From positions 1-55,652 of the forward strand of contig JAKSOT010000004.1 of NCBI GenBank assembly GCA_024405455.1: a stretch of DNA of 55,652 bases, given 5' to 3'. The stretch comes from Akkermansia sp. (GTDB lineage: Bacteria; Verrucomicrobiota; Verrucomicrobiia; Verrucomicrobiales; Akkermansiaceae). The notes below the pieces were generated by a model. It did no database searches. It was given only the letters and a program-made list of their open reading frames with translations, and was not told the origin of the DNA. Made by a program: the position numbers and the translations under genes. Shown one piece after another: positions 1,270 through 55,652 of the stretch. Every line of letters begins with the position of its first letter. The stretch's first letter is position 1.

Positions 1270-3453
1270 ATGGCAAGTGTAAGCAGCCCCGACCGCAAGG
1301 CCCCGCTTGAGCGCTACCGCAACTTCGGTATCGCCGCTCACATCGACGGTGGCAAAACCACGCTCTCCGAACGCATCCTCTTCTACACCGGCATGATCCA
1401 CAAGATCGGCGAGACCCACGAAGGGTCTGCGACGACCGACTGGATGGAACAGGAGCAGGAGCGCGGCATCACCATCACCTCCGCCGCCGTCACCACCAAC
1501 TGGAAACAGCTCCCCGCCGAGGGTTGCTACAAGATCTACGAGAACGAGAACTTCCAGCTCAACGTCATCGACACCCCCGGGCACGTGGACTTCACCGCCG
1601 AGGTGGAGCGCTCCCTGCGCGTGCTCGACGGCGCCATCGTGGTGTTCTGCGGTGTGGCCGGCGTTCAGCCCCAGACCCAGACCGTGTGGCGCCAGGCCAC
1701 CAAGTACAACGTGCCCCGCATCTGCTTCGTCAACAAGATGGACCGCACGGGCGCCAATTTCGCCAACGTGCTGGACGGCATCCGCAACAAGCTGCATGCC
1801 AACGCCGCCTCCATCCTCGTCCCCATCGGCGCGGAGGACCAGCTGCGCGGCCAGATCGACGTGGTGAACCAGAAGGCCATCATGTACTCGGACAACGACC
1901 GCCTGGGCTCCACCTACGAAGTGACCGACATTCCCGCCGAGCTGAAGGAGGAGGCCGAGGCCGCCCTTCAGGAGCTCAAGGAGAAGGTGGCCGACGTGGA
2001 CGACGAGCTTGCCGAGCTCTTCCTGATGGAGGAGCCGATTGACGCCCCCACGCTGAAGGCGGCCATCCGCCGCGCCACCATCGCCAACAAGTTTGTGCCC
2101 GTGGCCGGTGGCTCCGCGTTCAAGAACAAGGGCGTGCAGGCCCTGCTGGACGCCGTGGTGGACTACCTGCCCTCCCCGCTGGAGGCCAAGGTGGCAACCG
2201 TGACCTCCACCATCTCCAACGGACTCGACGAAAACGGCTACGAGACCTTCGAGACCAAGGAAATCATCCCCTCCGACGAGGACAAGCCCATCGCCCTGGC
2301 GTTCAAGCTCTGGGCGGACAAGTTCGTGGGCTCCCTCGTGTTCATCCGCGTGTACACCGGCGTCATCCACAAGGGCGACACCGTGTACAACCCCCGCACC
2401 CGCAAGCGCGAGCGCGTGGGCCGTCTCCTCCAGATCCAGGCCAACGTGCACACGGACGTGGACGCCGTGTACTCCGGCGACATCGCCGCCATCGTGGGCT
2501 TGAAGAACGCCACCACGGGCGACACGCTGGCCGCGGACGACTTCGACTACACGCTGGAGCCGCCCACCTTCCCGGACACCGTGATTTCCATGGCCGTGGA
2601 ACCCCTTACCAAGGCCGACCAGGAGAAGATGTCCAACGCCCTCCAGCGCCTCTCCGCAGAAGACCCCACCTTCCGCGTGAAGACCGATGAGGAAACCGGG
2701 CAGACCATCATCGCCGGCATGGGCGAGCTTCACCTCGACATCATCGTGGACCGCCTCAAGCGCGAGTTCAAGGTGGAGGCCAACACCGGCAAGCCCCAGA
2801 TCGCCTACCGCGAAACCATCACCAAGTCCGCTGAGCACGTTCAGGGCAAGCTCGTCAAGCAGTCCGGCGGCCGCGGCCAGTACGGCGACGTCATCATCGA
2901 CATGCGCCCGGGCGAGCGCGGCACCGGCCTCAAGATTGCCAACAAGGTGGTGGGCGGCGCCATTCCCAAGGAGTACATGAACGCCGTGTACGCCGGCCTC
3001 AACGAAGCCATGAACTCCGGCACCGTTGCCGGATACCCCGTGGAAGACGTGGAGGTGGACGTGGTGGACGGTTCCTACCACGAGGTGGACTCCAACGAAA
3101 ACGCCTTCAAGATGGCGGCCATCTTCGCCATGAAGAACGCCTTTGTGAAGTGCGCGCCCGTGCTGCTGGAGCCCATCATGAGCGTGGAGGTGACCACCCC
3201 CGCCGAGAATCAGGGCGACATCATGGGCGACCTCAACCGCCGCCGCGCCAACGTGAGCAACATGGAGCACCGCGGTGCCGAGTGCATCCTCACCGCCAAG
3301 GTTCCCCTGGCGGAGATGTTCGGCTACTCCACGGATATCCGCACCCTCTCCAAGGGCCTGGCCTCCTACTCCATGGAGCCCTCCCACTTCGAACAGGTCC
3401 CCCCGAACCTTGTCGCCCAAATCGTCAAGGCCCGTGGTGGCGACGCCAAATAA
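1270..3453 (+). CDS. fusA: Elongation factor G
   Basis: EF-G is the GTPase that translocates tRNA and mRNA on the ribosome and, with RRF, recycles ribosomes. The 727-residue product carries the GTPase motifs in order: AHIDGGKT (residues 23-30, P-loop), the RGITI switch region, DTPGHVDF (101-108) and NKMD (155-158). Domains II to V follow, with the MGELHLDIIVDRLKREF and GRGQYGDV blocks. It is slightly longer than the roughly 700-residue norm. tuf, which often follows fusA, is absent; rpsJ follows after 37 nt. The start lacks a Shine-Dalgarno sequence and lies in ATTACTATTATGG. Confidence 0.98.
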   Translation: MASVSSPDRKAPLERYRNFGIAAHIDGGKTTLSERILFYTGMIHKIGETHEGSATTDWMEQEQERGITITSAAVTTNWKQLPAEGCYKIYENENFQLNVIDTPGHVDFTAEVERSLRVLDGAIVVFCGVAGVQPQTQTVWRQATKYNVPRICFVNKMDRTGANFANVLDGIRNKLHANAASILVPIGAEDQLRGQIDVVNQKAIMYSDNDRLGSTYEVTDIPAELKEEAEAALQELKEKVADVDDELAELFLMEEPIDAPTLKAAIRRATIANKFVPVAGGSAFKNKGVQALLDAVVDYLPSPLEAKVATVTSTISNGLDENGYETFETKEIIPSDEDKPIALAFKLWADKFVGSLVFIRVYTGVIHKGDTVYNPRTRKRERVGRLLQIQANVHTDVDAVYSGDIAAIVGLKNATTGDTLAADDFDYTLEPPTFPDTVISMAVEPLTKADQEKMSNALQRLSAEDPTFRVKTDEETGQTIIAGMGELHLDIIVDRLKREFKVEANTGKPQIAYRETITKSAEHVQGKLVKQSGGRGQYGDVIIDMRPGERGTGLKIANKVVGGAIPKEYMNAVYAGLNEAMNSGTVAGYPVEDVEVDVVDGSYHEVDSNENAFKMAAIFAMKNAFVKCAPVLLEPIMSVEVTTPAENQGDIMGDLNRRRANVSNMEHRGAECILTAKVPLAEMFGYSTDIRTLSKGLASYSMEPSHFEQVPPNLVAQIVKARGGDAK

Positions 3454-3490
3454 ACCAACCTATTACTAACCTAAACATAACCGCACGTTC

Positions 3491-3799
3491 ATGCAAAGTC
3501 CCAAAATCCGCATCCGTCTCCGTGCATTTGACAGCCGCGCCATCGACCACTCCGCCTCGGAGATCGTCGAGACCGCCAAGCGTACAGGTGCAAAAGTCGC
3601 AGGGCCGATTCCTTTGCCGACTCGTATCGAGAAGTTCTCTGTGAACCGCTCGGTCCATGTTAACAAGAAATCCGCCGATCAGTTTGAAATCCGCACGCAC
3701 AAGCGTCTGCTCGACATCGTCGACCCGACCTCGCGCACGGTGGAAGAGCTCAAGAAGCTCAACCTGCCGGCCGGCGTGGATATCATGATCAAGATCTAA
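3491..3799 (+). CDS. rpsJ: 30S ribosomal protein S10
   Basis: S10 belongs to the 30S head and doubles as NusE in transcription antitermination complexes. The 102-residue product shows the family pattern: [15 protein letters not shown] near the N-terminus, [19 protein letters not shown] in the middle and [17 protein letters not shown] toward the end. It directly follows fusA, so the str and S10 operons are joined here without tuf. No Shine-Dalgarno sequence precedes the ATG. Confidence 0.98.
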
Positions 3800-3837
3800 G
3801 CCCTGACATTATCAACCCTCAACTCTGATTTACGAAC

Positions 3838-4482
3838 ATGTCTTTAGGACTTATCGGTAAAAAGGTTGGCATGACCCGCGTCTTCAACCAGGAGACCGGA
3901 GCCATGATTCCCGTCACCGTCATCGACGTGGCAGGCAACACCTTCGGCCAGGTCAAGACCGCCGAGAAGGACGGCTACACCGCCGTTCAGGTGGCTTTCG
4001 ACGCCCAGAAGGAGAGCCGCCTCTCCAAGCCGGTGGCCGGCCATTTCAAGAAGCTGGGCATAGCCCCGGCGAAACTGCTCAAGGAGTTCCGCGTGGAGGC
4101 CTCCGAGCTGCCCGCCGAGGGCGCGGCCCATCCCGGCTGCGAGCTCTTTGAGGAGGGCGCCTGGGTGGATGTCATCGGCACCTCCAAGGGCAAGGGCTTC
4201 CAGGGTGTGATGCGCCGCCACAACTTCCACGGCTCCCCCATGGCCCACGGCTCCATGATGCACCGCCGCACCGGCGGCGTGGGCGCCTGCGCCACCCCCT
4301 CCCGCGTGTGGAAGGGCCAGAAGATGCCCGGCCACATGGGCAGCGAGCAGCGCACGGTCCAGAACCTCAAGGTTGTTCAGGTGCGCAAGGAGGACAACGT
4401 GATCCTCATCTCCGGCCCGGTTCCCGGCGCCAAGGGATCCTACGTGGTCATCCGCCCCGCCAAGAAGAAGAACGGCAAATAA
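3838..4482 (+). CDS. rplC: 50S ribosomal protein L3
   Basis: L3 is an early-assembly 23S rRNA-binding protein whose loop reaches the peptidyl transferase centre. The 214-residue product starts MSLGLIGKKVGMTRVF and contains GTSKGKGFQGVMRRHNFHGSPMAHG and the MPGHMGSEQRTVQNLKVV block expected of bacterial L3. It lies between rpsJ and rplD, 38 nt after the former. The start follows an AT-rich spacer without a Shine-Dalgarno sequence. Confidence 0.98.
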   Translation: MSLGLIGKKVGMTRVFNQETGAMIPVTVIDVAGNTFGQVKTAEKDGYTAVQVAFDAQKESRLSKPVAGHFKKLGIAPAKLLKEFRVEASELPAEGAAHPGCELFEEGAWVDVIGTSKGKGFQGVMRRHNFHGSPMAHGSMMHRRTGGVGACATPSRVWKGQKMPGHMGSEQRTVQNLKVVQVRKEDNVILISGPVPGAKGSYVVIRPAKKKNGK

Positions 4483-22643: not shown

Positions 22644-23894
22644 ATGGAAGGGAAACGCCTCAAGGTACTGGTTGGCTCGTACGCCTGTGATCCCGGGTAC
22701 GGTTCAGAACCCGGGATGGGGTGGAATTTCGTGAGCAATATTGCACGTTTCCATGAGGTTCACGCCATTGTGGAGGAGGGGGAGTTCAAGGAAACTCTCA
22801 CCAGGTTTGCCGCAGAGCACCCGGAGGCCGTGGAGCACATCACCTTCCACTTTGTACCGCGCACGCACCACAACCTGTTGCGCAAGATCTGGCCGCCCAG
22901 CTACTACTGGTTCTACCGCGCCTGGCACAAGCGGGCGTACAAGCTGGCCAGGGAACTGGACAAGCGGGAGAATTTCGACATCGTGCACCAGGTGACCATC
23001 TCCGGGTTCCGCTGCCCGGGCTACCTGTGGAAGCTGGGCAAGCCGTTTGTGTGGGGCCCGCTGGGCGGGTTCACGGACACGCCGTGGTGCCTGCTGCGCA
23101 GCCTGGGTTTGGGCGGCGCCATCCACTTTGCCGTGCGAAACATCGTGAACGGTTTCCAGAAGCGCTGGGGGCGGGAGGCCCGCGCCGCCGCGCGCCACTC
23201 CGCCGCCATCCTCACCAGCACCACACAGGCCGTGGATGAAATCAAGCGCTTCTGGAAGAGGGACGCCGTCCTGATGAACGAGGTGGGCCTGGAGAAGTAC
23301 GAGGGCACGGAGGGTTTCACCCCGTCCATGCACGAGCCGGGCACGCCGCTGCGCATCTGCTGGGCGGGCGAGCACATCCCGCGCAAGGCGCTGGACCTGC
23401 TGCTGCGCGCCCTGCCGCTCTGCAAGGAAAAGGTGGAACTGCACGTGCTCAGCAAGGGCCCGCGCATGGAGGCTTGGAAAAAGCTTTCCCGCAAGCTGGG
23501 GCTGGACGGTGTGGTGACCTTCCACGGCTTCGTGCCGCGCGAGGAGGCGTTCCGCATCATGTCCACCAGCCACGTGTTCTGCATCACCAGCGTGCGGGAG
23601 GACACCTCCACCGTCGTCTTCGAGGCCTTCCGCTACGGGCTGCCCATCATCGCCCCGGACCACTGCGGATTCGCCACGGTCATTAACGAGACCTGCGGCA
23701 TCAAGATACCCATCAACTCCCGCTCCCAGGTGATAGGGGACTACGCGCGCCACCTGGACCACCTGGCCACGCATGAAGAGGAACGCCGCCAACTCTCCGA
23801 AGGCGCGCTGAGACGCTGCCGGGATTTCACCTGGGACGCCAAGATGGAGGTGCTTAACCGCCTCTACGCGGATGCGGCGGGGAGGAACGCTTAA
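22644..23894 (+). CDS. Glycosyltransferase family 4 protein
   Basis: The 416-residue product has a GT-B fold layout: N-terminal VLVGSYACDPGYGSEPGMGWNF, a middle LRICWAGEHIPRKALDLLLRAL at the start of the nucleotide-sugar domain, and EDTSTVVFEAFRYGLPIIAPD, the E-x7-E-like region. It probably adds a sugar to a cell-surface glycan. It ends convergently with a GT2 gene, sharing 4 nt. The start is chosen from the promoter position; an in-frame ATG further upstream at 22605 overlaps the -35 box. Confidence 0.87.
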   Translation: MEGKRLKVLVGSYACDPGYGSEPGMGWNFVSNIARFHEVHAIVEEGEFKETLTRFAAEHPEAVEHITFHFVPRTHHNLLRKIWPPSYYWFYRAWHKRAYKLARELDKRENFDIVHQVTISGFRCPGYLWKLGKPFVWGPLGGFTDTPWCLLRSLGLGGAIHFAVRNIVNGFQKRWGREARAAARHSAAILTSTTQAVDEIKRFWKRDAVLMNEVGLEKYEGTEGFTPSMHEPGTPLRICWAGEHIPRKALDLLLRALPLCKEKVELHVLSKGPRMEAWKKLSRKLGLDGVVTFHGFVPREEAFRIMSTSHVFCITSVREDTSTVVFEAFRYGLPIIAPDHCGFATVINETCGIKIPINSRSQVIGDYARHLDHLATHEEERRQLSEGALRRCRDFTWDAKMEVLNRLYADAAGRNA

Positions 23895-49364: not shown

Positions 49365-51368
49365 ATGCGGACCCGCATTGCAGAGCAAGTGCTGGAGTTC
49401 GCCTTCCCCGCCGGAACCTCGCGCGGCGTCTACACCACACACCGCGTCTGGCGCGTGGAAGTGCAGGACGACACCGGCCGCGTGGGCATCGGCGAGTGCG
49501 CGCCGCTGCCGGATTTGAGCTGCGACGCCCTGCCGCCGCGCGAGTACCGCGCCAAACTGGAGGACGCATGCGCCGAGCTGGCGCGCACCGGGGAAATCCC
49601 CGCGGGGAGCCTGCGCGAATACCCGTCCATCCTCATGGGGCTGGAGACCGCCGTGCAGCATTTGCGCGCGGGCGGCTGGCGCCTGTGGGACACGCCGTTC
49701 AGCCGCGGTGAGGAGGGAATCCGCATCAACGGACTCATCTGGATGGGCGACTTCCCCACCATGCTGGAGCGCCTGGAACGCAAGCTGCAGGCGGGGTTCA
49801 AGTGCATCAAGGTCAAGATTGGCGCCATCGACTGGCAGCGCGAGGTGGACCTCCTGCGCCGCATCCGCGAGCGGTACTCGCCACAACAGGTGGAGCTGCG
49901 CGTGGACGCCAACGGCGCGTTCTCCCCGCAGGACGCTCCCGCGCGCCTGGAGCAATTGGCCGCGTTCGGCATCCACTCCATCGAGCAGCCCATCCGCGCC
50001 GGGCAATGGAGCGACATGGCGCGCCTGTGCAGGGAATCCCCCGTGCCCGTTGCGCTCGACGAGGAGCTCATCGGCGTGAACGATCCCGCCCGCAAGGCGG
50101 AACTGCTGGATGCCGTCCGCCCGCGCTACATCATCCTGAAACCCACGCTGCACGGCGGATTCCGCGGCGCGGAGGAATGGATGCGCCTCGCGGATGCGCG
50201 CGGCATCGGGCACTGGGTCACCTCCGCGCTGGAATCCAACATCGGGCTGAACGCCATCGCCCAATGGTGCGCCGCGCGCCGGCACGACATGCCGCAGGGC
50301 CTCGGCACCGGGCAGATCTACACCAACAACGTCGCACCCTTCCCGCTCTCCATCCGCGGCGAGCAACTGTGGTTCGACCCCGCAGCCGCCGCGCCCTGCA
50401 CGGAGTTGAACGCCTTCCTCGACGACTGGAACGGCCCCGCCGAATGCATCACCGTGCACACCTCCGGCTCCACCGGCGAACCCAAGCCCATGCAGGCCCG
50501 CAAGGAATTCATGGAGGCCAGCGCGCGCATGACCTGCCGCTTCCTCGGGCTGCGGGAGGGCGACTCCGCGCTGCTCTGCCTGCCGCTGCGCTTCATTGCC
50601 GGAAAGATGATGGTGGTGCGCTCCCTGGTGGCGGGGCTGCGGCTCATCCCGTGCGAACCGTGCGGGCACCCGCTGCGCGGGCTGCAGGAGCCGCCGGACT
50701 TCGCCGCCATGGTGCCGCTCCAGGTCTTCAACTCCCTCCAAGTGCCGCAGGAGGCCGAGATGCTGCGCGGGATCAAGAACCTCATCATCGGCGGCGGCCC
50801 CGTGGACGACGACCTCGCCGCGCAATTGAAAAAATTTCCCAACGCCGTGTGGTCCACCTACGGCATGACCGAAACCCTCTCACACATCGCCCTGCGCCGC
50901 CTCTCCGGCCCATCCGCCGATGCCTGCTACACGCCCTTCGACGGCGTGCAGCTCGCCCTCAACGAACACGGCTGCCTCGTCGTCACCGCCCCACACATCG
51001 GATGCCATAACCTCGCCACGCACGACATCGTCGAGATGGACTCCCGCGGCCGTTTCCGCATCCTCGGCCGCAGCGACAACACCATCAACTCCGGCGGCAT
51101 CAAAATCCAGCCCGAGCAAGTGGAGGAAACCCTCCGCCGCAACGGCCTGGCGGACGTCCTGCTCACCTCCGTCCCCGACCCCAAATTCGGCGAATCCACC
51201 GTCCTCCTCACCACCGCCGACCCCACAGAGGCGGAGCGCATCTGCCACTCTTGTCTCCCCCCCTACTCCATCCCCCGCCGCATCCTCCGCGTCCCCGCCC
51301 TTCCCCTCACCCCCACCGCCAAACCCAACCGCCCCGCCGCCCACCGTCTGGCCCAATCAAACATCTAA
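49365..51368 (+). CDS. menC: MenC-MenE fusion (o-succinylbenzoate synthase and ligase)
   Basis: The 667-residue product joins two consecutive menaquinone-pathway steps. Residues 1 to about 335 are MenC of the enolase superfamily: KVK (Lys149, Lys151), Asp181 in RVDANG, Glu207 in IEQP, Asp232 in ALDEEL and Lys259 in LKPTLHGG. From about residue 360 it is MenE, the acyl-CoA ligase: HTSGSTGEPKPM, TYGMTET and GRSDNTINSGGIKIQPEQVEE. It starts 4 nt after ftsQ. The 3' end of this gene is duplicated at 53187-53257. Confidence 0.92.
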   Translation: MRTRIAEQVLEFAFPAGTSRGVYTTHRVWRVEVQDDTGRVGIGECAPLPDLSCDALPPREYRAKLEDACAELARTGEIPAGSLREYPSILMGLETAVQHLRAGGWRLWDTPFSRGEEGIRINGLIWMGDFPTMLERLERKLQAGFKCIKVKIGAIDWQREVDLLRRIRERYSPQQVELRVDANGAFSPQDAPARLEQLAAFGIHSIEQPIRAGQWSDMARLCRESPVPVALDEELIGVNDPARKAELLDAVRPRYIILKPTLHGGFRGAEEWMRLADARGIGHWVTSALESNIGLNAIAQWCAARRHDMPQGLGTGQIYTNNVAPFPLSIRGEQLWFDPAAAAPCTELNAFLDDWNGPAECITVHTSGSTGEPKPMQARKEFMEASARMTCRFLGLREGDSALLCLPLRFIAGKMMVVRSLVAGLRLIPCEPCGHPLRGLQEPPDFAAMVPLQVFNSLQVPQEAEMLRGIKNLIIGGGPVDDDLAAQLKKFPNAVWSTYGMTETLSHIALRRLSGPSADACYTPFDGVQLALNEHGCLVVTAPHIGCHNLATHDIVEMDSRGRFRILGRSDNTINSGGIKIQPEQVEETLRRNGLADVLLTSVPDPKFGESTVLLTTADPTEAERICHSCLPPYSIPRRILRVPALPLTPTAKPNRPAAHRLAQSNI

Positions 51369-51377
51369 TCACCGCGG
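51310..51377 (+). repeat. Direct repeat, copy 1 (3' end of menC-menE)
   Basis: This stretch, ending just past the stop codon, is matched at 53187-53257. The first 61 nt show four mismatches without gaps, then a 3-nt insertion precedes a shared ACCGCGG. The two copies bracket the second AbiE pair and its repeats. Confidence 0.85.
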
Positions 51378-51397
51378 CATTGAATGCCGCCATTAGA
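51364..51397. repeat. Hairpin after menC-menE
   Basis: TCTAAT/ATTAGA outer and GCGGCATT/AATGCCGC inner arms (51364-51369, 51374-51381, 51383-51390, 51392-51397). It starts at the menC-menE stop and may act as a terminator, although no T-run follows. A second hairpin CGCGCCC-TGC-GGGCGCG lies at 51418-51434. Confidence 0.7.
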
Positions 51398-51494: not shown

Positions 51495-52334
51495 TCACGG
51501 CGTCCACCCCGCCATCAGCTCGGCAACCGCCGCCAGCGTGCTTTCCAGCGAAATCTCTCGCGCATAGGGGAACTTGGTGCTGTACACATTCCACTGTGCA
51601 TGCAGCGCGGCGCTTTGCTTCAGCGTATCCAGCCGCTCGGCGGCATCATTCAACACGGCGGCTGTGCCCCTGTGTTCCGCCGTGGCGAGCAGGGCCTCTT
51701 TGAACAGGGCCGGGCTGAACTGCCCCGCACGGCTCAAGATGTAGACATCGTAAAAATCCCTGGGGCGCGTGCTCAGCGTGCCTAGGCTCAGGATGGCCTC
51801 CACCTTTTCCGCAAGTATGGTTTCCACGTTGTAGCCCCAAAGGGATATTTTCGTCTCGTCGCCGAACATGCCGCCGAACTCGTACTCCACCGGATGCGGA
51901 GTTATGGCGTCGCCCGTGGAGATATCGATGGACAGCGGCGTGCGCAAGGTGTCGTACAGCGCATCCAGTCGCACGCGGAAGCCGCCGTAGACGTCATCCT
52001 TGCGTATCGGCTCCATGCCGATGCTCTCGAATGCGGTGCCGTCTCCCAAATCAATGGCGGCAATGGCGTTGACCGCTTGCAGCACGGCCTCGCCCGTGAG
52101 CGGCATGCGCCGCAGCGTGGCGTCCAAATCCATGGTGGTGCGGGTGGCCAGTCCCATCAGGTGGCTCACCAGCATGCCGCCCTTGATGACGAAGTGGTCT
52201 CGGTACGGCGAGCGCGACAAGCGCTCCAGGAAGCGCTCGAACATGTAATTCTGCAACGCCACCTGCGCCGGAACCCCGCAGCGGGCGGCGTAGTTTTTCA
52301 GCAAGGCTTTCAATCTCATTCCCTGGGCACTCAT
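51495..52334 (-). CDS. AbiEii-family nucleotidyltransferase toxin (second pair)
   Basis: The 279-residue product shows the DUF1814/AbiEii features: FVIKGGMLVSHLMGLATRTTMDLDATLRR with the metal-binding DLD, and YNVETILAEKVEAILSLGTLSTRPRDFYDVYIL. The start MSAQGMRLKALL at 52334 overlaps the antitoxin stop (ATGA). It is clearly different in sequence from the toxin at 29106-30002, so the two pairs were probably acquired separately. Confidence 0.9.
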   Translation of the reverse strand: MSAQGMRLKALLKNYAARCGVPAQVALQNYMFERFLERLSRSPYRDHFVIKGGMLVSHLMGLATRTTMDLDATLRRMPLTGEAVLQAVNAIAAIDLGDGTAFESIGMEPIRKDDVYGGFRVRLDALYDTLRTPLSIDISTGDAITPHPVEYEFGGMFGDETKISLWGYNVETILAEKVEAILSLGTLSTRPRDFYDVYILSRAGQFSPALFKEALLATAEHRGTAAVLNDAAERLDTLKQSAALHAQWNVYSTKFPYAREISLESTLAAVAELMAGWTP

Positions 52335-52924
52335 AGCAGTAATCCGGCAAACATTCGCAATTCCTTCTCCACCCCGAACATGGCCCCGTACTGCCCCAGC
52401 AGGTGGAGATCCTTCTGCGGGGAAGCGGCATAGTTTTTCAGCGCGGCGTGCAGGGCCTCCACATTGGTGCGCTTGCTGCAGCGCAACATGTCGCACAGCG
52501 TCCTCTCCGCGTTGTAGCAGCGCACGGGATTGCCGAACGGCGTGCGCCGCTCCGCCATGCCCACGGAATACCAGGCCGGCTTCACGTAAAAGCATTCGCA
52601 CTCCCCCGCCAGCGCGCTGGAAAGCGACGCCTTGCGCGGCAGCGTCACCGCATACGCAAAGGGCGTGCGCTCCCCGATGCCGTTCAGATACAGCGCCGTT
52701 TCATGGGAAAACACAGCCTTGGATTGGCACAGCTGCAACGTGTACATCTCGTCGTGCACCGTATCGGGCAACCCATACACCCCGTGCCGCAAACGCTCCA
52801 GCTTTCCGCGCCGCGCATAGTCCAGCATCAGCTGCCGACTCACCCCAAGCTCCGCCGCGCGTGAAACCGTGATGATTCCACCCGTTTTCCCTGCCTCCTC
52901 GGCCACCTGTTCATAGAGACTCAC
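52331..52924 (-). CDS. AbiEi-family antitoxin with HTH (second pair)
   Basis: The 197-residue product has an N-terminal winged helix (YEQVAEEAGKTGGIITVSRAAELGVSRQLMLDYARRGKLERLRHGVYGLPD). The AbiEi C-terminal domain follows (HETALYLNGIGERTPFAYAVTLPRK ... VRCYNAERTLCDMLR). It should neutralise the adjacent toxin and repress the operon. A GTG at 52924 places the start just before the winged helix; a TTG at 52984 would overlap a TTGACT -35-like element and is less likely. Confidence 0.85.
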   Translation of the reverse strand: MSLYEQVAEEAGKTGGIITVSRAAELGVSRQLMLDYARRGKLERLRHGVYGLPDTVHDEMYTLQLCQSKAVFSHETALYLNGIGERTPFAYAVTLPRKASLSSALAGECECFYVKPAWYSVGMAERRTPFGNPVRCYNAERTLCDMLRCSKRTNVEALHAALKNYAASPQKDLHLLGQYGAMFGVEKELRMFAGLLL

Positions 52925-53148
52925 CTCGTATTCACTTTCCTTTGCAACGGCAATTTGCCACAACGCCGCCCAAAAGTCAAACAAAATCGCAAACTTTTCT
53001 CGCTTTTGCCCGGTAAACGAGCGCTGAATAAGGGGGCGGCGGAATGTTTTTTATGCGCAGGGAGATAGTAGTGTGGGGGTAGTAGTGTGTCGCGCAGCCT
53101 ATGGCGCGCCGCTCGTTGCTCCGCGCCGCAAGGCGCGCGCTATCCCGA

Positions 53149-53186: not shown

Positions 53187-53257
53187 CCCCCACCGCCAAA
53201 CCCAACCGCCCCGCCGCCCACCGCCTCGCCCAATCCCACATCTAATCTCCACCGCGG
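53187..53257 (+). repeat. Direct repeat, copy 2 (menE 3' remnant)
   Basis: Copy of 51310-51377. It keeps the menE frame (TAKPNRPAAHRLAQSHI followed by TAA), so it is a remnant of a menE-like 3' end and not chance similarity. Confidence 0.85.
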
Positions 53258-53313
53258 ACGCCGCCGGCAAAAACAACACAAGAATTTCGATGGGGAATAG
53301 GCCTTCTGCGTCA

Positions 53314-53331
53314 GCAGCTAAATGATAATTT
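53314..53331 (+). repeat. hsdS recombination repeat, copy A
   Basis: GCAGCTAAATGATAATTT on the plus strand, coding the LNDNL motif at the start of the conserved central region of HsdS. It is exactly repeated in inverted orientation at 54022-54039. Confidence 0.9.
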
Positions 53332-54046
53332 GGAGGCCATGGCACAGGCTCTGTACGACTACTGGTTCGTGCAGTTCGATTTCCCAGATGAAAACGGCAA
53401 GCCCTACAAGTCCAGCGGTGGCAAGATGGTGTGGAATGACAAGCTCAAGCGTGAGATACCGGAAGGGTGGACAACAGAAACGGTTGGCGAGATTACTATG
53501 TGCCATGATTCTCGCAGGATTCCCTTATCGGGGAAAGTGCGTGAGACAATGCAAGGCGATATCCCTTATTACGGTGCAACAGGCATTTTTGGATATGTGA
53601 ATCGTCACATTTTTGAAGGAGACTTTGTATTACTAGCTGAGGACGGCTCAGTGATGACAGAAAAAGGACGACCGATTGTCCAACGCGTATCTGGCAAGGT
53701 ATGGATAAACAACCATGCCCACGTCTTGCAACCCAGCAAGGAACACGGTTGCAAGTTGCTAATGATGATACTTTCTGAAATACCTGTTGAAAAGATAAAG
53801 ACAGGTTCAATACAGGCCAAAATCAATCAAGCGAATCTGAGCGCATATTGTCTGGCAAAAATACCCCGCACCCTTATTTGTCGGACGAATAAGATTCTTG
53901 ATGAAATAGATTCAAGACTACTAGCGCTAGCAAGAGAAATAAATACTCTTACCAAGCAGCGTGACCTCCTCCTGCCCCTGCTGATGAGCGGTCAGGTGCA
54001 GGTCAAGCCGCAAGGGGAGCTAAATTATCATTTAGCTGCCGATTAA
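53330..54046 (+). CDS. hsdS: Type I restriction specificity subunit, C-terminal half (partial hsdS)
   Basis: The 238-residue frame is the second half of a type I restriction-modification specificity protein. It begins in the central conserved region (LEAMAQALYDYWFVQFDFPDENGKPYKSSGGKMVWN). A second target-recognition domain follows (IPEGWTTETVGEITMC to LAKIPR) and the C-terminal coil (REINTLTKQRDLLLPLLMSGQVQV). The frame is open back to 53246 but has no ATG and no first recognition domain. The first codon given here is TTG. The last residues (GELNYHLAAD) are read through repeat copy B. As it stands this is a silent half gene. Confidence 0.85.
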   Translation: MEAMAQALYDYWFVQFDFPDENGKPYKSSGGKMVWNDKLKREIPEGWTTETVGEITMCHDSRRIPLSGKVRETMQGDIPYYGATGIFGYVNRHIFEGDFVLLAEDGSVMTEKGRPIVQRVSGKVWINNHAHVLQPSKEHGCKLLMMILSEIPVEKIKTGSIQAKINQANLSAYCLAKIPRTLICRTNKILDEIDSRLLALAREINTLTKQRDLLLPLLMSGQVQVKPQGELNYHLAAD

Positions 54047-54521
54047 GGCGGATTTTCCGAGAAAGCACAGCATTTAATAGGCCGATGTGGTGTTCTTCCT
54101 CTTCAGAGAGGTCAGGAACGAGGAATCGCATGATTTGCTGTTTGTCACCCCTTGGCATTTTTGCTCCCTTCTTCCCAGCCATTGCGTGGTCAAAGAAAGC
54201 ATCCTGCATGAGCACTGCATATAGGAAATCTGGAGAATGATGTGGATGGACACGGAAGACTAATACATCTGGGGAACATCCCCCTGTGCAGTCGGCTTGC
54301 CAAATCTTCTTCAGATAGGGTCGTATGTTTGCCACCAGTACGTCGCCTGGTTCGAATTTTGTCAAGGAGACCTTATTGGGCGGGAGTTTTTGTGCTGTTT
54401 CTCTCCCTGCCTTGTTTGGCATGAGAGAATCTGTGGTCACGTATGTCTCCAGCGAAACAGCATCACTGCTGATTCGCTCCCCTACATAAGTGGCAAGCAT
54501 CGACAATGCAACGTGGCTCAT
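54003..54521 (-). CDS. hsdS: Type I restriction specificity subunit, N-terminal half (partial hsdS)
   Basis: The 172-residue product has a first target-recognition domain (MSHVALSMLATYVGERISSDAVSLETYVTTDSL ... FRVHPHHSPDFLYAVLMQ). It is followed by the central coil EEEHHIGLLNAVLSRKIRLNRQLNDNL. It then breaks off after reading through repeat copy B (LAPLAA, stop). Full HsdS proteins have two recognition domains and about 400 residues. It has its own promoter. Inverting the DNA between copies A and B would continue it into the half gene at 53330-54046. Confidence 0.87.
   Translation of the reverse strand: MSHVALSMLATYVGERISSDAVSLETYVTTDSLMPNKAGRETAQKLPPNKVSLTKFEPGDVLVANIRPYLKKIWQADCTGGCSPDVLVFRVHPHHSPDFLYAVLMQDAFFDHAMAGKKGAKMPRGDKQQIMRFLVPDLSEEEEHHIGLLNAVLSRKIRLNRQLNDNLAPLAA
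54022..54039 (-). repeat. hsdS recombination repeat, copy B (inverted)
   Basis: Reverse complement of copy A, 18 of 18 nt identical. The surrounding bases form a small palindrome AGCTAAAT-TATC-ATTTAGCT. Copies A and B bound a segment of about 0.7 kb that could invert. Confidence 0.9.
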
Positions 54522-54530
54522 GCAAGCGCG

Positions 54531-54559
54531 AGTATACGCCAATCCGCCCCAAAAGGCAA
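54531..54559 (-). promoter_or_regulatory. Promoter of the hsdS N-terminal half
   Basis: On the minus strand TTGCCT (54554-54559), a 17-nt spacer and TATACT (54531-54536). The ATG at 54521 follows after 9 nt, so the leader is only a few nucleotides. Confidence 0.65.
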
Positions 54560-54592
54560 GCGTTTCACGCCTTGTATAGAGAGCCAGGGTTG

Positions 54593-55582
54593 CTAACTAA
54601 TATATTTTCGGTGAGCCAGTTTAACATTGTTTTGGTTGACCTGTGCGTAATGCAGTGTGGTGTCTACTCGTACATGCCCCAGAAGTTTTTGCACCTGCTC
54701 GATGGGCATCCCTTTATCGATAGCCATGGTCGCCATGGTGCGGCGGAACTTGTGGGGGTGAATATGGTGGATGTTGGCGCGGGAGCCGACGGCGCGAAGA
54801 CGACTTTCCACCCCACCGATAGTCAGGCGGGAATGAGGAGCATGCAGTGAGACGAAAAGCGCTGGGTTATCATCGGAGCGCTCGCGTAGATAATTGAGCA
54901 AATGAATCTTTGCGCGGGCGTTGAAGTAGACCTCACGCTCTTTGTTGCCTTTGCCAAATACCACACATTGGCGTTCTTGGAAGTCGATATCCTGCCGGTT
55001 CATCTTGACCAATTCGCCGACGCGAATGCCGGTGGACACGAGGAGGTCAATCATGGCCAAGTCGCGGGGTTCGATGCAGGAATCACGCAGGACTTCCAGA
55101 TTCTCATCGGTCAGCACTTCCTTGATGAGTGACTCTGCTCGCACCTTGCGGATGCGGCGCACAGGGCTCTTGCGGATGAGGTCTTCATCCTCCAGCCATG
55201 AGAAAAAACTGGAGAAGATGCGGCGGATATTGTCAATGGTCACGCGGCTGAGCGAGCGGGTTTCCTGGATAGAGGCGAGGAAGCTGCGGATGTCTGCGGT
55301 AGTGATGGCATCCATAGGTTTATCAATGGCGGTCAACAGCTTGTGGAGTGTAGAGTGGTAGTAGGTCAAGGATTTCTCAGAGCAGCCCTCCAAACGCTTT
55401 GCGGCGATGAACGCCTGCTCCAGATCGTTGTTTTCTCGCATGCATCGCACGCCATCGGATTCTCTCGGCGTTATCTCCACCTGTTCCAGTTCTTTGAGCA
55501 GGACTTCTCGAAGAGCATCCCTTTCTGCCTGCGGGAAGTGGGATAGCTTAGCCAGTACGTTGTTGATGAGATTCTGCTTCAT
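54593..55582 (-). CDS. Tyrosine recombinase, likely hsdS invertase
   Basis: The 329-residue product has an N-terminal SAM-like DNA-binding domain (about 55-145) and a complete tyrosine-recombinase catalytic domain. The catalytic residues are Arg in TGIRVGELVKM, Lys in GKGNKER, His-x2-Arg in HPHKFRRTMAT, His in LLGHVRVDTT and the nucleophile Tyr in TLHYAQV. It lies between the two hsdS recombination repeats B and C, so its likely job is inversion at those sites, as with Xer-like enzymes of other phase-variable hsdS loci. It also resembles XerC/D; integration or dimer resolution is the alternative. Confidence 0.9.
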   Translation of the reverse strand: MKQNLINNVLAKLSHFPQAERDALREVLLKELEQVEITPRESDGVRCMRENNDLEQAFIAAKRLEGCSEKSLTYYHSTLHKLLTAIDKPMDAITTADIRSFLASIQETRSLSRVTIDNIRRIFSSFFSWLEDEDLIRKSPVRRIRKVRAESLIKEVLTDENLEVLRDSCIEPRDLAMIDLLVSTGIRVGELVKMNRQDIDFQERQCVVFGKGNKEREVYFNARAKIHLLNYLRERSDDNPALFVSLHAPHSRLTIGGVESRLRAVGSRANIHHIHPHKFRRTMATMAIDKGMPIEQVQKLLGHVRVDTTLHYAQVNQNNVKLAHRKYIS

Positions 55583-55591
55583 GGTAGGGCT

Positions 55592-55620
55592 ATTATATCA
55601 GCTGGGCAAAATCCTGCCAC
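55592..55620 (-). promoter_or_regulatory. Promoter of the recombinase gene
   Basis: On the minus strand GTGGCA (55615-55620), a 17-nt spacer and a consensus TATAAT (55592-55597). The ATG at 55582 is 9 nt downstream. Confidence 0.6.
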
Positions 55621-55637
55621 CCGCTACCTGGCGTAGA

Positions 55638-55652
55638 GATAAATGATAATTT
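55638..55652 (+). repeat. hsdS recombination repeat, copy C (cut by window edge)
   Basis: GATAAATGATAATTT at the last bases of the window shares 13 contiguous nt (TAAATGATAATTT) with copy A and has the same orientation. In the matching frame it reads EINDN, the same HsdS position, so another hsdS segment probably continues to the right. Confidence 0.7.

Follow-up and report, generated by a model that had tools for sequence, protein, structure and literature searches.

The window analyzed here is the whole of contig C89 (55,652 bp) of an Akkermansia MAG (G000; genome of 2.35 Mb in 154 contigs). Its right-hand end very probably belongs to a four-site locus in which a tyrosine recombinase inverts DNA between short core sequences and so switches hsdS, the specificity gene of a type I system. 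The proposed order is site a, C2, site d, recombinase, N_b, site b, C1 and site c, where N and C denote N-terminal and C-terminal halves of hsdS. This explanation draws on the gene content, on the sites and the in-frame joining of the halves across them, on the layout and alternative states found in relatives, and on contig junctions that overlap or compete with one another.

The hsdS halves and recombinase of the window

At the end of the window two halves of hsdS face each other. The C-terminal half C1 (53330-54046, plus strand; an ORF of 238 aa) contains the central conserved region that follows the residues NDNL, then TRD2 and then the C-terminal helix. It matches Pfam PF01420 (Methylase_S) above the cut-off (E 1.8e-9) and positions 180-399 of the PADLOC profile Specificity_I (E 5.5e-52). 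The N-terminal half N_b (54003-54521, minus strand) begins with an ATG at 54521, stops at 54003 and is in the split state, reading out of the invertible segment that holds C1 (53332-54021) after 172 aa. A Pfam search with N_b alone gave no match, and its identity as HsdS is therefore taken from its ortholog in a related Akkermansia locus (L015, described below), from the PDB matches of the joined product and from a structural model of the ortholog. Adjoining the two halves is a complete XerA-like tyrosine recombinase of 329 aa (54593-55582, minus strand; PF00589, E 6.7e-34), which scores over the cut-off of the XerA-like NCBIfam model NF040815 and carries the catalytic motifs GIRVGE, HPHKFR and LLGH together with Y312. 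Both halves and the recombinase had been described in an earlier note on this DNA, and every coordinate was confirmed.

Two promoter-like sequences accompany these genes. Upstream of N_b lies TTGCCT-17-TATACT (54531-54559, minus strand), a sigma-70-like element by consensus match only, and TATA-box-like elements occupy the equivalent place in L015 and in a further Akkermansia locus, L017. Sigma-70-like matches in the region number five against 2.4 +/- 1.6 expected, barely over chance, so that the promoter previously ascribed to N_b exists as a sequence but is weak as a claim. The element of the recombinase gene, GTGGCA-17-TATAAT with an extended -10 (55592-55620, minus strand; 10 of 12 matches), sits between site d and the recombinase ATG, and the GATTTTGCCC and GCTGATA elements beside it are kept in L015 and L017.

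The locus is adjoined by an AbiEii/AbiEi-type toxin-antitoxin pair (51495-52984, minus strand; Pfam and PADLOC matches). The AbiE genes are bracketed by a C-rich 69-nt repeat of 90% identity at 51310-51378, where it overlaps the end of a coding frame, and at 53187-53255, just left of site c.

Inversion of the segment in silico brings residues 1-166 of N_b into frame with the C half, and the product, which ends at the C1 stop, is exactly 404 aa long, the single HsdS that the earlier note had predicted. Joined in silico to the C half, the second N half of this genome, N_a, gives a product of 414 aa. Residues 56-167 of the joined window product match two HsdS structures, 3okg and 5ybb (E about 7e-4). 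As this protein is absent from the present DNA, the naturally joined HsdS ortholog of L015 was modeled with AlphaFold (mean pLDDT 85, pTM 0.74; 20-sequence alignment). In the model each of two recognition domains is followed by a long helix (140-180 and 357-396), which supports the proposal that the joined protein has two such domains, and the NDNL residues (164-167 in L015) fall within the central helix. Its ten best PDB matches in Foldseek are nine HsdS/S-type subunits and the specificity subunit of BsaXI, a related system, with 1yf2 first (E 4e-23).

Core sites, contig C79 and alternative states

The 18-nt repeat GCAGCTAAATGATAATTT is found at 53314-53331 and, inverted, at 54022-54039, as had been noted earlier, and is part of a 21-nt pair of 95% identity; by chance the 2.65-kb region should contain about 5e-5 inverted 18-mer pairs. 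Within it lies a 13-nt core, TAAATGATAATTT, which encodes the N-D-N-L residues of the HsdS central helix. Chance predicts about 0.006 copies of the core in the 2.35-Mb genome; exactly four exist, all of them at this locus. Site c (53319-53331, plus strand) is an exact core at the left end of C1, site b (54022-54034, minus strand) marks the end of N_b, and site d (55640-55652, plus strand) is formed by the last 13 bases of contig C89. The fourth core follows N_a on another contig, C79, at position 23009 (plus strand). A near-match on contig C98 (TAAATGACAATTT) was judged to be due to chance, lying in unrelated sequence with no hsdS. The core is directional, with an a, b, c or d end always at its left and an x or y end at its right. 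Here a is the end of N_a, b is the end of N_b, c is the chromosomal flank at 53318 and d is the recombinase-promoter side; a C half has x as its 5' end and y as its 3' end. Known continuations past the core start with G for x and with A for y, and they diverge at the very next base after site d.

The hsdM and hsdR genes expected to the right of the window were both found, but on contig C79 (23,062 bp) and abutting N_a, a different N half. This contig carries hsdR, hsdM, N_a and the core, in that order, with the ATG of N_a overlapping the end of hsdM, and runs 41 nt past the core before it ends. Pfam and PADLOC matches bear out the identities of HsdR, HsdM and N_a (Pfam HSDR_N/SWI2_SNF2 and N6_Mtase; PADLOC MTase_I, E 1e-228). 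The last 54 nt of C79, core included, are identical to the window minus strand from 54034 to 53981, the 3' end of C1. It is this overlap and synteny with L015, not continuous sequence, that tie the hsdR and hsdM of the locus to C89.

Three distinct hsdS halves were found in G000, namely N_a, N_b (32% identical to N_a) and C1. Two C halves are needed, however, because the four left ends a, b, c and d require four right ends. A search of the assembly for the second, by tblastn and with a 30-nt y-end pattern, returned the known copies alone; it is assumed to have been lost as a contig of ~0.7 kb, which could have been filtered out. The complete locus is predicted to run hsdR, hsdM, N_a, C2, recombinase, N_b and C1, with four sites. 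The one invertible segment proposed earlier is well supported, but by this geometry and by comparison with L015 it belongs to a locus of four sites and two C halves; the third core (55640-55652), the fourth core beside hsdM and the second C half had all been absent from that account. C79 shows N_a split and the window shows N_b split, and the assembled genome contains no full-length hsdS. With both N halves split in the contigs, functional specificity subunit may have been scarce in the sampled majority.

What does the locus look like in its relatives? L015, from an Akkermansia MAG of water buffalo, has a recombinase 91%, an HsdM 92% and an HsdR 86% identical to those of G000. On a single contig it carries hsdR, hsdM, N_a, a reversed C2, the recombinase and an in-frame fusion of N_b with C1, together with four cores. 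The N_b halves of L015 and the window share 75.4% identity, against 21-38% for other N-half pairs; this is therefore one first recognition domain, split in the window and joined at the site in L015, in support of the view that the window captured a split state. N_b is likewise joined to a C half in L016. In L017 (SIG73; from MAG G023) the recombinase-N_b block is flipped, N_b is split and, on the hsdM side, a C half has been joined to N_a. At every Akkermansia junction that was read, an N or flank end meets an end of a C half, as the four-site model requires. Within the genus, 8 of 59 genomes searched contain a full-length recombinase with at least 56% identity to that of the window. L017 also has a RhuM-family gene between hsdM and hsdS (3033-4052, minus strand; Pfam E 4e-100). 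More distant recombinase copies of Akkermansia (58-60%; L098-L101, from G028, G052, G043 and G024) also flank hsdS. Their sites are other than TAAAY....ATTT or lack an obvious form of it, and the G052 copy (L099) has TAAATCAAAATTT twice.

Within MAG G023 itself, one contig has N_a joined to C1 and recombinase side d joined to the start of C2, while a second contig opens with 30 nt of that N_a, here followed by C2; 91 nt are common to both N_a contigs before they diverge. The final base of the window contig is also the final base of core d, and in G007, too, a contig terminates exactly where a core does. Contigs would be expected to stop at the x/y divergence because assemblers stop there when reads hold both junctions. 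Such contig ends and overlaps are indirect signs that switching may be ongoing, though they could also have arisen as artefacts of assembly.

The recombinase, which has its own promoter-like sequence, would invert segments between oppositely oriented cores. C1 and C2 could each flip, as could the recombinase-N_b block, and recombination between the outer sites would swap C1 with C2. Because the a, b, c and d ends must each join x or y, 2 x 2 x 2 x 2 = 16 arrangements are possible. Pairing N_a or N_b with C1 or C2 would yield four full HsdS proteins, and there would also be split states, with an N half truncated once past its own recognition domain; in the window, C1 lies in the orientation that leaves N_b split. 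N_a is probably translationally coupled to hsdM by their overlap, whereas N_b has promoter-like sequence only. Switching is predicted to change methylation, and the expected outcome is a population of cells that differ in the specificity of their methylation and restriction, or that have little specificity function.

The recombinase family and competing explanations

The 80 best relatives of the window recombinase are found in Bacteroidota, Bacillota, Verrucomicrobiota and a small number of MAGs that bear a proteobacterial label. Nearby hsdS-like frames occur in 74 of the 80, and 62 of the 68 loci that have at least two such frames contain inverted repeats of at least 13 nt (one, L066, counting through masked N alone). 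Most family loci have common arms, TAAAY....ATTT, and identical cores number at least two in 67, at least three in 60 and at least four in 41 of 74 loci. Tyrosine recombinases need identical spacers in partner sites, and uniform spacers are therefore expected within a locus. Among the 40 loci having sites tied to HsdS junctions, the spacer is uniform within 34 and varies between loci. The other six differ only by opposite-strand reading of a near-palindromic site, and all 40 are uniform once this is considered; shuffling spacers between loci left 4.6 of 40 uniform on average and 10 at most. Coding conservation fails to explain the pattern, since the residues encoded there differ between loci. 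The recombinase of the window is likely to be the enzyme that acts on the cores.

In six Bacteroidales loci (L061, L080, L082, L088, L090 and L092) the hsdS genes are arranged in tandem and point the same way. Two spacer classes of the same-armed site occur there in direct copies: TAAATGATAATTTA lies between the recognition domains, and TAAATTCCCATTTATGG or TAAATTCTCATTTATGG lies at the gene start, overlapping the stop of the preceding hsdS as well as the start of the following one. This tandem layout suggests cassette-like excision and insertion, not inversion. A broader reading, plausible but short of probable, is that recombinase and site form one hsdS-shuffling module over several phyla, with fixed arms and the 4-base spacer as a locus-specific address; in some Bacteroidales, two direct-orientation spacer classes, one separating recognition domains 1 and 2 and the other placed where the hsdS gene begins, might then allow the same recombinase to shuffle these domains separately as cassettes.

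Could the window instead hold a static, decayed hsdS pseudogene, left by an ancient inversion or domain loss, whose repeats are merely homologous NDNL coding sequence? The assembled genome does lack a full-length hsdS, with both N halves split in its contigs. The halves are nevertheless open, conserved in orthologs and able to join exactly in frame, the recombinase is intact and 85-91% conserved, and joined genes exist in the orthologous loci L015, L016 and L017. The core is also present at sides c and d, which are not hsdS, and a spacer that is uniform per locus yet varied between loci is not what coding conservation predicts. Decay is accordingly very improbable as an explanation.

Slightly less probable still is an assembly chimera formed at the repeats, such that the C half and N half are not truly adjacent in the split orientation. 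Contigs do break at these sites, and C-half y ends are near-identical over tens of bases. Unique sequence, however, namely the left flank of site c and N_b, lies on both sides of the ~700 bp C segment, and the split-facing layout recurs in long independent contigs, including those of isolates (for example S. suis L067, Ruminococcus L028 and Hespellia L049). A genuine, recombinase-inverted locus thus remains the preferred explanation.

Relation to characterized systems

The closest characterized system is SsuCC20p of Streptococcus suis, which has four TRDs, xerD inside the locus and 14-bp repeats, TAAATCATCATTTA, in two identical sets. A single isolate was found to contain several alleles, switching was lost in xerD deletions, and the hsdS located downstream of the recombinase makes a contribution to methylation as well (PMC10790761; PMC5198162). 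In common with the predicted complete Akkermansia locus it has hsdR, hsdM, four TRDs of which two are repeat-flanked, a recombinase within the array, the position of the repeats at the central codons and the gene order. An S. suis relative in the family set, L067, has the same layout and the site TAAATCATCATTTA, with a recombinase ~60% identical over its full length. Of this design four cores were found in G000, whose assembly lacks the second C half; all parts are present in L015. The window differs in its spacer (TAAATGATAATTT), phylum and TRDs, and SsuCC20p alone has two extra hypothetical genes as well as proven switching and methylation. The suggestion in the earlier note that the arrangement, with its break at these codons, may be a new variant is therefore not upheld: the architecture and a site with the same arms, at the same codons, have already been described for SsuCC20p, and both recur in dozens of relatives. 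Its suggestion of recombinase-driven hsdS switching fared better, and the S. suis precedent and the joined L015 ortholog both argue that such switching may take place here.

Other systems were compared by their published descriptions. In pneumococcal cod/SpnIII (SpnD39III) a locus-encoded tyrosine recombinase, PsrA/CreX, likewise inverts hsdS segments at a 15-bp repeat, IR1, but there are three hsdS genes, further repeats of 298 bp (IR2) and 85 bp (IR3), and partly PsrA-independent inversion (PMC4948785, PMC7096588, PMC4190663). With its single short repeat class in four copies, the Akkermansia locus has in SpnIII a more elaborate cousin. Pneumococcal tvr/SpnIV also exchanges hsdS segments through a recombinase, but by excision and reintegration, whereas neighboring sites in the window are inverted (PMC6265443). 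Promoter invertons of Akkermansia share the genus and the invertible DNA, but have the motif CGGATT..AATCCG and are associated with promoters and capsule genes, not hsdS coding halves (PMC13343947; group 138 in PMC11892184). The main text of a REBASE survey of such loci makes no mention of Akkermansia or Verrucomicrobia, and no report of hsdS switching in Akkermansia was found in the full-text literature searched, a body that mostly excludes subscription journals. The kind of locus is already proven in S. suis, and its occurrence in Akkermansia is what is new.

hsdS switching at this locus may be a continuing process. With these findings Akkermansia, a gut genus that attracts broad interest, gains a type I system that a recombinase very probably switches. 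They offer an explanation for the breaks in MAG assemblies at such loci and a compact, testable site for a recombinase family whose genes neighbor hsdS in numerous gut bacteria. Within one population, cells could then differ in their methylome and in their barriers to phages and plasmids.
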